The translations under genes and the position numbers were made by a program. A stretch of 64,000 bases of DNA from Blattabacterium cuenoti (GTDB lineage: Bacteria > Bacteroidota > Bacteroidia > Flavobacteriales > Blattabacteriaceae), in assembly GCF_014251255.1 (NCBI RefSeq), contig NZ_CP059182.1, forward strand, positions 1 to 64,000, written 5' to 3'. Shown here piece after piece: positions 1,333 through 62,335 of the stretch. Each line of letters begins with the position of its first letter. The stretch's first letter is position 1. The notes below the pieces were generated by a model, which was given only the letters and a program-made list of their open reading frames with translations, had not been told where the DNA came from and made no database searches.

Positions 1333-4029
1333 ATGACTGATAAAATCAGATTAAAAACAGTATTAACCAAATTCAATATTTCCTTACAAAGAGTTGTCAA
1401 TTTTTTGAAAAGAAAAGGGATTAAAATAGAAAATAATCCTAATGCAAAAATAGAGGAACAAGTATACAGATTTCTTGTAAGAGAATTTAAAACTTATAAA
1501 GAAATACGAGATGCTTCTGAAAAAGCTTTTTTACAAAAAAGAAAAGAAAAAGAAAAAATAAAAAAAGAAGTATTGAAATCCAAACATAATAATGTTGCTC
1601 ATCAAATCATACGTGCAAAATCAGAGAAACTAGTTAGATTAAAAAAAATAGGAAAAATAGATATTGACACATTAGAAAAAAAATATGGAACTCCCGAAGG
1701 GACAAAAGACAAAAAACATATTGAAGTTGAAGAGAAAAAAACAGGAAATCATAAATCTATTATTCAAAAACATAAAGAAAAAAATAATAAAAAACCTGAA
1801 CATATAGATACTATCTATCAAAAACTAGATGGTGTCATGTTAACAGGAGATAGAATTGATCTATCTCAATTTGAAAAAAAAAGAACAAAACAAGAAAATA
1901 AAAAAAAACGAAAAAGAATTAAAAAAGAAATAATTCTTGAAGAGATAAAAAATATTCCTATCAATAGTGTGAATAATAGTAGAAATAAACAGGAAAAAGA
2001 AAGAAGAAATATTTTTAAAAATTTTTCTCATGAAAAAAAAATGGAGAAATCAAAGAATAAAAAAAATTATCAAAAATCTATAGTTACTGAAGAACAAATT
2101 GAAAAACAGATTAAAGAAACTTTAGAAAAACTTTCTTCAAAAGGAATTAAATCAAAAGCTTCAAAAATTAGAAAAGAAAAACGTTTACATAAAAAAGAAA
2201 AAAGAATTCTTAAAAATGAAAAAATAAAAAATGAAAAACAAGAACAAGAAAAAGTTCTTAAACTAGCTGAATTTACAACTGTAAATGAATTAGCATCTAT
2301 GATGAACGTAAATGCAACAGATGTTATTGTTTCTTGTATGTCATTAGGAATTATGGTGACTATGAATCAAAGATTAGACGCAGAGATATTAACCCTTGTT
2401 GCTGATGAATTCGGATACAATGTAGAATTTGTAGGATTAGATTTAGAAGAAGCTATTCAAGGAGATCATGATTTAGAAGAAAATTTAAAATCTAGACCTC
2501 CTATTATTACTGTTATGGGACATGTGGATCATGGAAAAACATCTTTATTAGATTATATTAGAAATACTAATGTAATTGCTGGAGAAGCTGGTGGAATAAC
2601 TCAACATATAGCAGCTTATAGTGTTGAACTATCGAATAATCAAAGTATCACCTTTTTAGATACACCTGGTCATGAAGCTTTTACTGCTATGAGAGCAAGA
2701 GGAGCACAAATCACGGATATAGCGATTATTGTGATAGCTGTAGATGATCAAGTAATGCCTCAAACTAAAGAAGCTATTAGCCATGCTCAAGCAGCAAATG
2801 TTCCTATTATTTTTGTGTTTAATAAAATTGATAAACCCAATGCAAACCCTGATAAAATTAGAGAACAATTAGCTAATTTAAATTTTTTAGTAGAAGAATG
2901 GGGGGGGAAATATCCCTCTCAAGAAATTTCAGCAAAGTTAGGAAATGGAGTAGATAAATTATTAGAAAAAGTTCTTTTAGTCTCTGAATTATTAGATTTA
3001 AAAGCAAATCCAAATAAACCTGCGACAGGAACTGTTATAGAAGCTTCTTTAGATAAAGGAAGAGGATATATAACCACCTTGCTTTTGCAAGGCGGAACAT
3101 TAAAAGTAGGTGATTATGTTTTAGCAGGAAGTCATCATGGAAAAGTCAAAAATATTTTAGATGAACGTGGAAAATCTATTCCATGTTCAGGACCATCAAA
3201 ACCTATCAAAATTCTAGGATTAAACGGAGCTCCTACTGCTGGAGATAAATTTAAAGTATTCAAAGATGAAAAAGAAGCAAAACAACTTGCTTCTAGAAGA
3301 GAACAACTGCAAAGAGAACAAAATATAAGAGCTCAAAAACATTTGACTCTAGATGAAATAGGAAGACGTATAGCTCTAGGAGACTTTAAAGAATTAAAAA
3401 TTATTATTAAAGGAGATGTTGATGGTTCTGTAGAAGCTCTTACAGATTCTTTACAAAAATTATCTATAAATAGGATCATGATTAATATTATATATAAAAG
3501 TGTTGGTCAAATTACAGAATCTGATGTTTTGTTAGCAAGTGCTTCAGATGCTATTATAGTAGGATTTAATGTACGTCCCAATACTGGAGCTAAAAATATT
3601 GCAAAAAAAGAAAATATAGAAATACGAATTTATTCAATTATATATGACGTTATTAATGATGTTCAAGAAGCTATGGATGGAATGTTATCTCCAGAAACAA
3701 GAGAAAAAATTTTAGGAAATGCAGAAATAAGAGAACTTTTTAAGTTTCCAAAAACAGGAACTATAGCTGGATGTATGGTCGTAGAAGGAAAATTATTACG
3801 TAAAGCAAAAGTTAGATTAATTAGAGAAGGAATTGTAATATACAACAATGGTGTTTTTACTTCTCTAAAACGTTTTAAAGAAGATGTAAAAGAAGTTTCT
3901 AAAGGATATGAATGTGGATTGGGGATAAAAGATTATCATAATCTTAAATATGGAGATATTATAGAAGTCTATGAAGAACTATCTTATTCTCCTCCTCCTA
4001 CTACAACAACTACAAACAAAAAGAAATAA
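1333..4029 (+). CDS. infB: Translation initiation factor IF-2
   Basis: IF-2 is the GTPase that brings initiator tRNA to the ribosome. The N-terminal ~310 residues are a Lys/Glu-rich, low-complexity extension. The IF2_N region follows ([21 protein letters not shown]). The G domain has G1 GHVDHGKTS at 396-404, G3 DTPGHEAF and G4 NKID, followed by domains II, III and the C-terminal fMet-tRNA-binding barrel. The C terminus carries a proline/threonine run ([13 protein letters not shown]) that looks like simple-repeat drift. It lies 57 bp after nusA and 14 bp before aspS, so the three are probably co-transcribed. Confidence 0.97.
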
Positions 4030-53854: not shown

Positions 53855-55159
53855 ATGATAATAAAGGTTAAGGTTCCTTCTCCAGGAGAATCAATTACAG
53901 AGGTAGAAGTTTCCTCATGGCTCGTTAAAAATGGTGATTACGTTTCTAAAGGTCAAATAATAGCAGAAATAGATTCAGATAAAGCAACTTTGGAAATTTC
54001 TGCAGAAGAAAATGGAATAATAACCTTAATGAAAAAAAAAGGAGAAAAAATACAAGTAGGCGATATTCTATGTCTCATAGAAACTTCTTATGAAAAGAAA
54101 TCAAATCTTCTTCATGCAGAAAAAACAGAAGAAAAAAAAGAAATAAATAATAAAAGAATTGAAACAGTAAAAAAATATCCTTCTCCATCTGCAAAAAAAA
54201 TATTAACAGAAAAAAATATTCTCATAGAATCTGTTCAAGGGACTGGAAAACATGGAAGAATTACAAAAGGAGATTGTCTTGTTGCGGTTTCATCCACATC
54301 CTCTTCATCTTCTTCTTCTCCTATTATTATTACTACTAGTAGTAATAATAATAATGGAAATGGAGATGTTGATGATGATCATCATTATTTTTCTCCCCCT
54401 ACAGGTAGAGTTCCAACAGCATCTAGATATCATAAGAAAACCCCTCTTTCTTCTCTAAGAAGAAAATTATCTGAAAGATTGGTTTCTGTTAAAAATAGAA
54501 CAGCATTACTGACTACATTTAATGAAGTAGATATGAAGGAAATTTTTTTGATAAGGAAAAAATATAAAAATATTTTCAAAGAAAAACATGGTGTTAATTT
54601 AGGATTTATGTCTTTTTTTACGAAATCATGTGTTAGAGCATTATCTCTATATCCAGATGTAAATGCAATGATTAGTGGAGAAAATAAAATTAATTTCGAA
54701 TACTGTGATATTAGTATTGCTATATCTGGACCAAAAGGATTAATGGTTCCTGTCATAAGAAATGCAGAAAATTTGTCATTCAGAGGAATAGAACAAGAAA
54801 TTAGTAGATTATCTGAACGTGTTCGTAATGGAAAAATCTCTATAGATGAAATGACAGGGGGAACGTTTACCATAACTAATGGAGGAGTATTTGGATCTAT
54901 GCTTTCTACCCCGATTATCAACCCACCTCAAAGTGCTATTTTAGGAATGCATAAAATAGTGGAAAGACCTATTGCAATTAATGGATCAATTGAAATACGA
55001 CCTATAATGTATTTAGCACTATCTTATGATCATAGAATTATTGATGGAAGAGAATCTGTTGGATTTTTAGTTTCTGTAAAAGAATCAATAGAGAATCCAG
55101 TCAAATTTTTAATGGAAAAAAGTGAAAAAAATATTTCTAAAATATTAGAATTAGATTAA
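53855..55159 (+). CDS. sucB: 2-oxoglutarate dehydrogenase E2 (dihydrolipoamide succinyltransferase)
   Basis: E2 core of the 2-oxoglutarate dehydrogenase complex. The lipoyl domain has the modified Lys43 in EIDSDKATLEIS. A binding domain lies at about 108-145 (YPSPSAKKILTEKNILIESV). The catalytic domain carries the motif SYDHRIIDGRESVGFL. Between the binding and catalytic domains is an unusual linker of Ser, Thr, Asn and Asp runs (54290-54393). At 434 aa it is a normal size. It is downstream of sucA in the usual operon. No E3 gene is nearby. Confidence 0.95.
   Translation: MIIKVKVPSPGESITEVEVSSWLVKNGDYVSKGQIIAEIDSDKATLEISAEENGIITLMKKKGEKIQVGDILCLIETSYEKKSNLLHAEKTEEKKEINNKRIETVKKYPSPSAKKILTEKNILIESVQGTGKHGRITKGDCLVAVSSTSSSSSSSPIIITTSSNNNNGNGDVDDDHHYFSPPTGRVPTASRYHKKTPLSSLRRKLSERLVSVKNRTALLTTFNEVDMKEIFLIRKKYKNIFKEKHGVNLGFMSFFTKSCVRALSLYPDVNAMISGENKINFEYCDISIAISGPKGLMVPVIRNAENLSFRGIEQEISRLSERVRNGKISIDEMTGGTFTITNGGVFGSMLSTPIINPPQSAILGMHKIVERPIAINGSIEIRPIMYLALSYDHRIIDGRESVGFLVSVKESIENPVKFLMEKSEKNISKILELD
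54290..54393 (+). repeat. Low-complexity trinucleotide-rich linker within sucB
   Basis: The DNA is a chain of short trinucleotide runs (tct/tca, att, act, agt, aat, gat, cat) that encode homopolymer-like tracts of Ser, Ile, Thr, Asn, Asp and His between the binding and catalytic domains. The rest of the gene is ordinary coding sequence. Confidence 0.7.
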
Positions 55160-57324: not shown

Positions 57325-58530
57325 ATGAATTTATATGAATTTCAGGGAAGAGAAATATTAAATTCTTTTTCTATTAAAGTCCCTGACGGAATTGTTGCTT
57401 CCACTCCAGAAGAATCTGTACAAGCAGCAAAAAAAATATTAGAAAATACAAAAAAAAAATCTTTAGTTATTAAAGCTCAAATACATGCAGGAGGACGTGG
57501 AAAAAGTGGAGGGATCCAAATAGCAAAATCTTTAAAAGAAGTCTATGAAAAATCAAAAAGTATTTTAGGAAAATATCTGATTACTCCACAAACTTCAAAA
57601 AAAGGAAAATTAGTTCGTAAAGTTCTTATATCTGAAGATGTTTATTCTAATTCTTATATTTATGATGAATATTATATATCAATATTTATGAACCGTGATA
57701 TAGAAAAAAATATAATTGTTTTTTCTAAAGAAGGAGGAATGGATATAGAAGAAGTGTATAAAAATCATCCCGATAAAATATACACAGAAGAAATAGATCC
57801 AGGGTTAGGAATACAGTTTTTTCAGATTAAACGAATTGGTTTTCTTTTCAATCTAAAAGGTTCATATTTGAATAATAAATTCAGAGATTTTGTAATTTCT
57901 CTTTACAAAGCTTATTTATATTATGATGCCTTACTTTTAGAAATTAATCCTTTAATTAAAACTTTGGATAATGAAATGATGGCCGTAGATACAAAAATTG
58001 TATTAGATAATAATGCTTTATTTCGTCATAAAAAATATTATGATGAAATGCGTCGTCAAAAAAAAGAAGATCCTATTGAAATAGAAGCTTTTGAAGCAAA
58101 ACTTAATTTTTTAAAATTAAATGGGAATGTTGGGTGTATGGTTAATGGAGCGGGATTAGCTATGGCAACTATGGATATGATTAAATGTTGTGGAGGAAAT
58201 CCAGCTAATTTCCTAGATATAGGTGGAGATGCAGATACAAATCGTGTAGAAAAAGCTTTTCGTATTATTTTAAATGATAAATCTGTCAAAGCAATATTAA
58301 TTAATATTTTTGGAGGAATTGTTCGTTGTGATACAGTAGCAGAAGGAATTATTAATTCTTATCGTAAAAGAAACCATGAAATTGATATTAAAAAAATACC
58401 AATAGTTATTCGTTTACAAGGAACAAATGAAAATACGGCAAAAAAAATGCTTCAAACTAGTCAATTACCTATTTATTCTGCTGATTCTTTGGAAGAAGCA
58501 GCGAATAAAATAAAAGAAATTTTACTGTGA
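57325..58530 (+). CDS. sucC: Succinate-CoA ligase (ADP-forming) beta subunit
   Basis: The ATP-grasp subunit that converts succinyl-CoA to succinate with ATP formation. N-terminal MNLYEFQGREILNSFSI, ATP-grasp blocks VIKAQIHAGGRGKSGG and LEINPLIKT, and the C-terminal CoA-ligase block NIFGGIVRCDTVAEG are present. At 401 aa it is slightly longer than E. coli SucC. sucD is not adjacent. It continues the TCA steps of SucA and SucB. Its stop overlaps the start region of dnaX. Confidence 0.96.
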   Translation: MNLYEFQGREILNSFSIKVPDGIVASTPEESVQAAKKILENTKKKSLVIKAQIHAGGRGKSGGIQIAKSLKEVYEKSKSILGKYLITPQTSKKGKLVRKVLISEDVYSNSYIYDEYYISIFMNRDIEKNIIVFSKEGGMDIEEVYKNHPDKIYTEEIDPGLGIQFFQIKRIGFLFNLKGSYLNNKFRDFVISLYKAYLYYDALLLEINPLIKTLDNEMMAVDTKIVLDNNALFRHKKYYDEMRRQKKEDPIEIEAFEAKLNFLKLNGNVGCMVNGAGLAMATMDMIKCCGGNPANFLDIGGDADTNRVEKAFRIILNDKSVKAILINIFGGIVRCDTVAEGIINSYRKRNHEIDIKKIPIVIRLQGTNENTAKKMLQTSQLPIYSADSLEEAANKIKEILL

Positions 58531-58532
58531 AA

Positions 58533-59975
58533 ATGAAAGAGATGCTTTTTTATATTGTATTGACTAAAAAGTATAGACCACTAAAATGGAACGATGTTGT
58601 TGGACAAAAAGAAATAACAGTTTCTTTGAGAAGAGCAATTACAAAAAGTCGTTTATCTCAAATTTTGTTTTTTTTTGGTCCAAAAGGAGTTGGAAAAAAT
58701 ACATGTGCACGTCTTTTAGCTAAAGAATTAAACTCTTTTTCAGAATCAGAAGACCAATCCTTTAATTTATTTGAAATAAATGGTTTTTTGAAACATTCAA
58801 TAGAAGATATTTATGAAATCGTCAGTCAGATTCGTTTTTATCCAAAAAAAGGAAAATATAAAATATTTATTATTAATAACACACAATTTTTTTCTCAAAA
58901 AATTTTCAACGTTTTTTTTAAATTTTTTGAGAAACTTCCTTCACATGTATTATTTATTTTCTGTGATACAAAAAAAAATAGAATACTAGATTCTTTTATT
59001 TCACGTTGTCAAGTTTATGAGTTTCAGTCTATTTCTTTAAAAGATATTTATTTATATTTGAAAATGATAGCTGAAAAAGAAGAAATAGAAATAGAAAAAG
59101 AAGCCTTATTTATTATTTCTCAATATGTCAATGGATCATTAAGTGATGCTATTGATATTTTTGATAAATTAATTTTTCATGAACATGAAGAAAAAAAAAT
59201 AATATCTAAGGAATTTGTGATGGAAAAACTGGGAATTTTGGATCCTGATTATTATTTTCAAATCATTGATTCTCTCTTAGATGAAAAAACTTCTTACAAA
59301 GTATTAATTTTATTAGATCAAATTTTCAAAAAAAAGATTCATTATATCCATTTTATAAATGGATTTACCAAACATCTTAAAGATTTATTTTTATCTAAAT
59401 ATCCTGAAACAAGACTTCTTTTAAAATTAAGAAAAAAAACAACTATACAATCTTATATACAACAATCAGAAAAAATATCTTCCTTTTTTTTAAGAAGAGC
59501 TTTAATGATTTGTTGTAAAATGGAAAACGAATTAGAATTTAGTAAAAATCCAAGATTAATAATAGAAATATATTTAATACAGTTATCAAATTTTTTGAAT
59601 AAAAATTTTTTTTGTGAGAAATTCAAAAATATTTTACAAGAAAATTGGGAAAATTTTCTGATAAAATTTTCTGATAAAATTAATCCCACTTATTTAAATC
59701 TTTTGACAAAAGAAATACAGTTTCACATATTGTCAAAAAATAAAATACTTCTAATAGCTCCTTCCAAATTAGGAACTACTCGTGAGTTTTTTTTCATACA
59801 AACATATTTTGTAAAATATTTTAGGAAAATATGGAAAAATCCATATTTAGAATTTAAAATCATGATCCAAGAATCAGAAAATTCTAAAAAAGAACAATAC
59901 GATTTTCTATCAAAAAAAAATAAGTATGTAGAAAAATTGATTAAAAGATTAAATTTAAAAGTTTCATCTTCATAA
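58533..59975 (+). CDS. dnaX: DNA polymerase III clamp-loader subunit DnaX, with degenerate ATPase motifs
   Basis: Homologue of the tau/gamma clamp loader. TKKYRPLKWNDVVGQKEI, GKYKIFIINNTQFFS and FISRCQVYEF align with the family. However, Walker A reads GPKGVGKN (Asn56 in place of the Thr after Lys), the Walker B D-E pair is Asn-Asn (IINNTQ), the sensor-1 threonine-rich motif is FIFCDTK, and the four zinc-binding cysteines after the P-loop are gone because that module is deleted. The SRC arginine finger remains. At 481 aa it is shorter than free-living relatives. The ATG at 58533 is preferred over the GTG at 58527 that overlaps sucC. Confidence 0.85.
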   Translation: MKEMLFYIVLTKKYRPLKWNDVVGQKEITVSLRRAITKSRLSQILFFFGPKGVGKNTCARLLAKELNSFSESEDQSFNLFEINGFLKHSIEDIYEIVSQIRFYPKKGKYKIFIINNTQFFSQKIFNVFFKFFEKLPSHVLFIFCDTKKNRILDSFISRCQVYEFQSISLKDIYLYLKMIAEKEEIEIEKEALFIISQYVNGSLSDAIDIFDKLIFHEHEEKKIISKEFVMEKLGILDPDYYFQIIDSLLDEKTSYKVLILLDQIFKKKIHYIHFINGFTKHLKDLFLSKYPETRLLLKLRKKTTIQSYIQQSEKISSFFLRRALMICCKMENELEFSKNPRLIIEIYLIQLSNFLNKNFFCEKFKNILQENWENFLIKFSDKINPTYLNLLTKEIQFHILSKNKILLIAPSKLGTTREFFFIQTYFVKYFRKIWKNPYLEFKIMIQESENSKKEQYDFLSKKNKYVEKLIKRLNLKVSSS

Positions 59976-60115: not shown

Positions 60116-62335
60116 ATGATTCATTATTTTTCATATTTTTTTTTGAAAAAAAAACAAATATTTGTTCCTAACAATAGGAAAATAAATTTCTATTTTTCAT
60201 CATCTTCAGATGAAGATATTGAAAATGATAGTTCCACTTCTTATGGATCCTCATCTGGAGAGAGGAGGAGTAGTAATAGTGGGGGGAGTAGTAGTGGTGA
60301 TGGTGGTGGGAGAAGTACAGGATCTAGTAGTAGTAGCAGTTATTATGGAGGAGGAACTTCTTCAATAAGAAGTAAAACACCTGTTCTGGATAATTTTGGA
60401 AGAGATTTGAATGCTATAGCCATTGAAGGAAAATTAGATCCTGTAGTTGGGAGAGACAAAGAAGTTGAACGTGTTTCTCAAATTTTGAGTAGAAGAAAAA
60501 AGAATAATCCACTCCTTATAGGGGAACCTGGAGTTGGAAAATCCGCTATTGCAGAAGGATTAGCTTTACGCATTGTTCAAAAAAAAGTTTCTAGAGTTTT
60601 ATATAATAAAAGAGTCGTCGTATTAGATTTAGCAAGTTTAGTAGCTGGAACTAAATATAGGGGACAATTTGAAGAAAGAATGAAAGCAATTATAAACGAA
60701 TCAGAAAAAAATTCAGATTTAATTCTTTTCATAGATGAAATTCATACTATGATTGGAGCAGGAGGAACGACAGGTTCTTTAGATGCTTCTAATATATTTA
60801 AACCTGCTTTAGCTAAGGGAGATATTCAATGTATTGGAGCAACTACATTAAATGAATACAGACAATACATAGAAAAAGATGGAGCATTAGAACGTAGATT
60901 TCAAAAAATTATAGTTGAACCTTCTTCAGAAGAAGAAACTATTGATATTTTAAAAAAAATAAAAGGAAAATATGAAAGTCACCATAATGTCATTTATACA
61001 GAAAAAGCAATAAAAGCTTGTGTGAATCTTACTGGACGATATATTGTAGATCGTTATTTACCAGATAAAGCTATTGATGCATTAGATGAATCTGGATCTC
61101 GTGTCCATATTAAAAATATTAAAGTTCCACAAGAAATTATTCTTTTAGAGAAAGAATTGGAAAATATTCGTGAAGAAAAATCTAAAGTAGTTAAAAGTCA
61201 GAAATATGAAGAAGCAGCACAATTAAGAGATACAGAAAAAAAAATAGAAAAAAAATTGATAAAAGCTCAAAAAATATGGGAAGAATCTTCCAAAAAAAAT
61301 AAAGAAATTGTTTCAGAAGAAAATGTAGAAGAAGTAGTCTCTATGATGAGCGGAATTCCTGTAAATAGAATTGCTCAATCAGAAATGAAAAAATTAAATA
61401 AAATGAGAAATATTCTGAAAAAAAGAATTATAGGACAAGATGAAGCAGTAGAAAAAATTGTAAAAGCAGTTCAAAGAAATAGGACAGGATTAAAAGATCC
61501 TAACAGGCCTATAGGATCTTTTATTTTTTTAGGACAAACAGGAGTAGGAAAAACTTATTTGGCAAAAATATTTTCGAAAGAATTATTTGATTCTTCAGAA
61601 TCATTAATACGTATTGATATGAGTGAATATATGGAAAAGTTTTCTGTTTCTAGATTAATAGGAGCTCCTCCAGGTTATGTTGGATACGAAGAAGGAGGAC
61701 AATTAACAGAAATTATACGCCGTCGTCCTTACAGTGTTATATTATTAGATGAAATTGAAAAAGCTCATCATGAAGTTTTTAATATTTTATTACAGATACT
61801 TGATTACGGAAGTGTCACAGATAGCCTTGGAAGAAAAATAAACTTTAAAAATACTGTCATCATTTGTACCTCAAATACAGGAACACAACAATTAAAAGAA
61901 TTTGGAAAAGGAATTGGATTCGAGACTCAAGCAAGAAAATCGAATGACTATATAAAAAATATTTTAGAACATGCTTTAAAACGAACTTTTTCTCCAGAGT
62001 TTCTAAATAGAATAGATGATATTATTATTTTTAATTCTCTAAAAAAAGAAGATCTATCTAAAATAACTCATTTAGAATTAGAAAAAGTAAAAATTTACTT
62101 ATCTAATTTAGGATATGAAGTTATTTTTCTTCCTGAAGTAAAAGATTTTATTAAAGAAAAAGGATTTGATAAAGAATATGGAGTTAGACCTTTAAAAAGA
62201 ATCATAGAAAAATTTATAAAAAATACTATTTCAGAATGTATTATTAATGAAACTTTAAAAAAAGGAGATCAAATTACATTGAAAATGAATGAAAAAAAAG
62301 ATGATATACAAGTTTTAATTCAAAAAAAATTATAA
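60116..62335 (+). CDS. clpC: ClpC-type AAA+ unfoldase lacking the N-terminal Clp-N domain
   Basis: ATP-dependent unfoldase. From about residue 90 it follows Clp[20 protein letters not shown], first Walker [14 protein letters not shown] (about 136), [12 protein letters not shown], a UVR-type helix [19 protein letters not shown], second Walker [13 protein letters not shown] (about 475), and a ClpP-docking loop GKGIGFE. The first ~90 residues are a Ser/Gly-rich linker preceded by a short basic stretch; the usual ~150-residue Clp-N substrate domain is absent, and only about 140 bp separate it from dnaX. Total 739 aa against about 850 in free-living flavobacteria. A partner for ClpP (37331). Confidence 0.9.
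60198..60368 (+). repeat. Low-complexity Ser/Gly tract at the 5' end of clpC
   Basis: Trinucleotide-rich DNA (agt, ggg/ggt, tca) encodes runs of Ser and Gly between a short N terminus and the conserved [10 protein letters not shown] block. It is locally far richer in G than the surrounding sequence. Confidence 0.65.

Follow-up and report, generated by a model that had tools for sequence, protein, structure and literature searches.

In the reading we favour, which we hold with moderate confidence, the DnaX orthologue of Blattabacterium had lost ATP hydrolysis by the time of the common ancestor of the genus, and was kept as a nucleotide-binding, tau-like scaffold while the clamp system was dismantled genus-wide. 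The sliding clamp and its loader are regarded as core, essential parts of the replication machinery, and it seems that this cockroach symbiont, a bacterium of about 600 kb, copies its chromosome without the standard set.

The window analysed is a stretch of 64,000 nucleotides of Blattabacterium cuenoti, whose genome is a single contig of 632,233 bp. Its dnaX gene is flanked by sucC and clpC, and the gene order sucC-dnaX-clpC is likewise found in congeners. The features considered here are given below, with positions in the window and residue equivalences in E. coli gamma numbering.

58527..59975, + strand: dnaX ORF, 482 aa, with a GTG or ATG start (alternative ATG starts at 58533 and 58542)
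58569..58580, + strand: box II K15-Y16-R17-P18, part of the nucleotide pocket; K, Y and P the same in all 46 Blattabacterium species
58602..58607, + strand: G26-Q27, adjoining the adenine loop; no variation among the 46 species
58677..58703, + strand: Walker A GPKGVGKNT, residues 51-59; G51, G54, G56 and K57 invariant
58698-58700, + strand: Asn58 at the Walker A Mg-ligand position, equivalent to E. coli T52
58731..58760, + strand: zinc-module site; no module, which several relatives with intact Walker motifs lack too
58875..58880, + strand: Walker B, Asn117-Asn118 in place of Asp-Glu (E. coli D126-E127)
58968..58970, + strand: sensor-1 Thr148 (E. coli T157), kept; the preceding pair is Cys-Asp for Ala-Thr (A155-T156)
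59001..59009, + strand: SRC motif S159-R160-C161 with the arginine finger, kept in this species
59142..59144, + strand: Ser206 in place of the sensor-2 Arg (E. coli R215); Arg gone in 46 of 46 Blattabacterium
59193..59591, + strand: DnaX domain III (collar), residues 223-355; modelled with the clamp-loader fold, dN/dS 0.37
59649..59972, + strand: residues 375-482, a tau-type C-terminal domain; shares homology with the tails found in long flavobacterial DnaX

The identity of the ORF is well established. Its top model is NCBIfam PRK14971 (1e-89), which makes it a DnaX orthologue over domains I-III, and TIGR02397 scores it at 238.8 bits, slightly below the 250-bit cut-off. The PDB sequence matches are E. 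coli gamma/tau chains (3e-32). An AlphaFold model built with 57 sequences (pLDDT 86.8) has the clamp-loader fold, and a Foldseek search with this model retrieved 8vam_D (E 1.3e-23), the top PDB matches all being E. coli clamp-loader subunits. The tail aligns with those of long flavobacterial DnaX, with a domain match in F068 as well. Compared with bacterial DnaX (gamma/tau) of E. coli and flavobacteria, as described by PRK14971 and TIGR02397, the Blattabacterium protein is thus orthologous in sequence and alike in domain order, fold, P-loop, box II, and tau-type tail, but it lacks the hydrolytic residues, and its partners delta and delta' are missing.

A sequence-only reading of this DNA had described an Asn at the Walker A Mg-ligand position and an Asn-Asn pair in Walker B, and both substitutions are confirmed (T52 to Asn58, and D126-E127 to Asn117-Asn118). 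Its description of sensor 1 as altered applies to the A155-T156 pair, now Cys-Asp, but not to the Thr matching T157, which is retained as Thr148. The deletion of the zinc module is real; as a sign of inactivity we rejected it, because the module is also absent from flavobacterial DnaX with intact Walker motifs (G027, G029, G036, G038, G068, and Walczuchella), including free-living species. An additional defect of the ATP site, the replacement of the sensor-2 Arg by Ser206, had been overlooked. Overall, the claim that this DnaX is unable to hydrolyse ATP is well supported at the sequence level, and it holds genus-wide.

Genome searches yielded 49 Blattabacterium species, 46 of them with an AAA+-bearing DnaX, and 15 relatives were used for comparison. 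In the alignment of these proteins, the ATP site is lost throughout the genus (46 species) and intact in all 15 relatives. The P-loop pattern GxxGxGK is present, with its Lys, in all 46 Blattabacterium proteins, the sensor-2 Arg is lost in all 46, and the Walker B Asp in 45. The residue following the Walker A Lys is Asn in 41 species, Ser in four, and His in one. The sole Walker B exception, G017, has Asp-Asp in this motif and Ser after the Lys, yet no sensor-2 Arg. The sensor-1 Thr matching T157 is lost in 23 of the 46 species, and the SRC arginine finger is present in 27. The Walker A Ser/Thr, D126, and R215 are jointly absent from 42 of the 46 Blattabacterium proteins and from none of the 15 relatives, so the pattern is not due to chance; every relative, free-living or symbiotic, keeps all of these residues, including symbionts with 300-kb genomes. 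Given a genus-wide loss and 15 intact relatives, inactivation appears older than the diversification of Blattabacterium and would date to the common ancestor of the genus or earlier.

Could these observations be an artefact, caused by sequencing errors or by an intact second dnaX elsewhere? This is hardly conceivable, as 46 species assemblies carry the same changes and the single-contig genome, searched as a whole for a second dnaX or another DnaX-like loader, contains only one dnaX and no such loader. Persistence of ATP hydrolysis through unusual residues is very improbable too. Such an activity could draw on the invariant P-loop Lys, and on the SRC Arg and sensor-1 Thr still found in 27 and 23 of the 46 species, respectively, but 45 of the 46 have Asn, Lys, Arg, Gln, or His in place of the Walker B Asp, and none has the sensor-2 Arg; as the replacements vary among species, they fit loss and not redesign. 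The closest parallel within the loader is delta' (HolB), an inactive subunit with an SRC finger: like delta', Blattabacterium DnaX would be a non-hydrolysing subunit, and the finger is kept in DnaX of this species. However, delta' has a degenerate Walker A, whereas Blattabacterium DnaX has an invariant P-loop and has lost Walker B and sensor 2, and its sequence and locus are those of DnaX.

Profiles of HolA and HolB built from relatives were applied to the 49 Blattabacterium genomes and to relatives. Neither delta (HolA) nor delta' (HolB) was detected in any of the 49 genomes: the HolB profile returned just dnaX and Clp-type matches, the HolA profile nothing, and delta'/DnaX searches otherwise gave only RuvB- and Clp-type ATPases. 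The same profiles recovered both genes in G068 (1.3 Mb), G082 (309,299 bp), G069, and G070. The earlier suggestion that the cell uses another loader subunit is thus contradicted, with delta, delta', and a second DnaX-like loader all undetected here. Its alternative, a clamp loaded without the motor, presupposes ongoing clamp-dependent replication, against which stand the polymerase and the clamp gene themselves. All 27 Blattabacterium species aligned have a full-length DnaE that carries the PDIDIDF active-site motif, and in each of them its internal clamp-binding motif is replaced or deleted; the latter motif is present in three of three controls (QADMF in E. coli, QASLF in G068, and QCSLF in G082). 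By synteny, dnaN is absent from the pdxH-pheT interval in eight of the 49 genomes (G009, G010, G017, G020, G021, G044, G045, and G048). The beta-clamp gene is divergent in Blattabacterium (G059 carries such a divergent dnaN), and its ORF is split in G002, G018, and G049. Where dnaN survives, the protein-binding pocket of beta is mostly conserved, so some clamp use may persist in dnaN-bearing species. The C-terminal clamp motif of beta reads (I/V)MS, not (V/I)MP, in all Blattabacterium with an aligned C terminus (e.g. L184).

In every Blattabacterium examined, all that remains of DNA polymerase I is a 5' nuclease domain of about 300 aa, as in the following gene.

G000:C1:327599-328450 (L234): reduced DNA polymerase I, 5' nuclease domain only

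Pol I was rejected as a substitute replicase, its polymerase domain being absent. With Pol I so reduced and no further replicative polymerase identified, DnaE is the sole replicase detected.

Selection on dnaX was evaluated through dN/dS pooled over ten close pairs. The ratio is 0.39 for dnaX (CI 0.35-0.44), 0.37 for dnaN, 0.16 for dnaE, 0.27 for sucC, and 0.18 for clpC. Neutral simulations using the genome's own base composition gave 0.94-0.99 (about 0.97) and 14-44 stops per pair, and intact pairs have none. Within dnaX, the tail (0.43), the AAA+ region (0.39), and the collar (0.37) differ little, and some comparisons within the clamp-less clade reach 0.70-0.85. No increase specific to clamp loss stands out, as pairs with and without a clamp have overlapping ratios to sucC. 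Judging from these substitution patterns, dnaX is under relaxed but clear purifying selection after the loss of its ATP site, and is not a dead gene.

Twenty-three columns are invariant across the 46 species, 12 of which lie in the nucleotide-pocket region: K15, Y16, P18, G26, and Q27 in box II, and F49, G51, G54, G56, K57, C60, and A61 in the P-loop region. Invariant columns cluster in residues 49-61 (p = 3e-7). In AAA+ clamp loaders, box II and the P-loop region generally belong to the nucleotide pocket. In E. coli gamma, this pocket is lined by the P-loop Lys and the adenine loop (PMC6997377). As the invariant regions are those lining the pocket of E. coli gamma, we infer that DnaX would still bind a nucleotide, without hydrolysing it.

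The gene itself has a patchy distribution. G020 and G022 have lost it altogether, and in G021 just the collar and tail are left, so its function is dispensable in some lineages. In a tree of SucC, ClpC, and DnaE, obtained by a quick method and with several weak or open forks, dnaN loss is found in a seven-species group plus G048; four of these seven species keep a dnaX ORF, as does G048. Five species thus have dnaX without dnaN (G009, G010, G017, G045, and G048), and G022 has the clamp gene and no dnaX. In four further species, G003, G023, G041, and G044, dnaX is split, and the first three of these genes are interrupted at an A11 tract where collar and tail join. In free-living G027, G029, and G037 (L031, L025, and L023), dnaX ends past an A10-A11 tract, with the tau tail in another frame, and in F068 (L127) an A10 tract lies in frame just past the DnaX collar. 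Such tracts resemble slippage sites known to yield gamma and tau elsewhere (PMC5009743), and the A tract after the collar is likely a gamma/tau slippage site older than Blattabacterium. It is therefore doubtful that dnaX is truly broken in G003, G023, and G041, given the A11 break and the similar tracts with out-of-frame tails in free-living relatives; these split genes may be decoded instead.

What would an inactive DnaX do? It may be doing little: plain decay, in which a DnaX without important function is becoming a pseudogene, as often happens in reduced genomes, would account for the two losses and the truncation, for a dN/dS above that of the housekeeping genes compared, and for near-neutral values in parts of the clamp-less clade. 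We nevertheless consider it rather unlikely, since the frame stays open in most species when simulated neutral evolution introduces 14-44 stops even in close pairs, and since neither the pooled dN/dS nor a nucleotide pocket invariant in 46 of 46 species is that of a decaying gene. Still less probable, in our opinion, is a residual loader, that is, a DnaX homo-oligomer opening or holding the beta ring through nucleotide binding alone, with neither hydrolysis nor delta subunits. The co-occurrence of dnaX and dnaN in most species, the preserved binding pocket of beta, the constraint on dnaN, and the conserved P-loop are all in its favour, but the Mg ligand, the Walker B Asp, and the sensor-2 Arg are lost, there is no delta to open the ring, and the clamp-binding motif of alpha is gone. 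Also against it are the five species with dnaX and no clamp, and the one with a clamp and no dnaX.

The tau-like scaffold, which we prefer, would be a passive connector in cells whose replication no longer needs ATP-driven clamp loading. DnaX would hold an adenine nucleotide as a structural cofactor and self-associate through its collar, and its tail would tether the sole replicase, DnaE, to DnaX and perhaps to the helicase. In E. coli, the C-terminal domains of tau link alpha and DnaB, the tail binding alpha and the linker binding DnaB (PMC11470591), and without the clamp the processivity of the Pol III core is limited to 10-20 nucleotides (PMC5872134), which makes a passive tether a reasonable function to propose. 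A more far-reaching version, in which the ~600-kb chromosome is replicated independently of the clamp and the nucleotide-holding, non-hydrolysing DnaX takes the place of the sliding clamp by tethering DnaE, is only tentatively put forward. Walczuchella and other small-genome relatives (F064, F065, F080, and F082) are insect symbionts of the same family as Blattabacterium, and they show the reciprocal situation: the intact DnaX motor and HolB are kept and the tau tail is lost (HolA is present in F082, in pieces in F064 and F065, and not found in F080). This reciprocal retention of motor and tail fits the idea of DnaX as two separable functions. However, the tail is no more constrained than the AAA+ region, contrary to what a pure tether model would predict, so we propose two functions and a tether with caution; that dnaX evolves under weaker constraint than dnaE, sucC, and clpC also speaks against a scaffold.

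Genes for clamp and loader are reported to be fully lost in Carsonella (PMC2175510) and in Portiera of Bemisia tabaci (PMC5322561), and Uzinura to have neither dnaN nor dnaX (PMC3971599). These symbionts resemble Blattabacterium in replicating with DnaE and no or a partial clamp set, but their genomes are smaller and the genes were lost outright, whereas Blattabacterium keeps a DnaX that is apparently catalytically dead. In Blattabacterium, dnaX has been listed as present (PMC3971599), and dnaN was not found in strain Bge (PMC2768785) and was reported as a pseudogene in one strain (PMC6039017). In our incomplete coverage of the literature, we found neither a dead ATP site, nor loss of the clamp-binding motif, nor the lack of HolA and HolB reported for this genus. 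Retention of a motor-dead DnaX thus appears to be new, while clamp loss was already known in tinier symbionts. The 49 related genomes show clamp and loader disappearing step by step: the missing delta and delta', the dead motor, and the lost clamp hook of the polymerase are common to the species examined, whereas the clamp and dnaX genes have disappeared from only some of them. Species with dnaX and no clamp, or the reverse, and the reciprocal retention of motor and tail are natural separation-of-function cases, through which the roles of DnaX beyond clamp loading, and how far a replisome can be simplified, become testable.

Other loci yielded minor observations. A low-complexity stretch rich in Ser and Gly lies close to the N terminus of the clpC-type ORF (window 60116-62335) and varies in length among congeners, and the lipoyl-enzyme E2 ORF (window 53855-55159) has a Ser/Asn/Asp-rich low-complexity linker that is largely missing in G022. 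The LolD-type ABC ATPase of G022 (L062, about 3175-3844) looks out of frame at its C terminus; lolD is a reported pseudogene in other Blattabacterium (PMC6039017).
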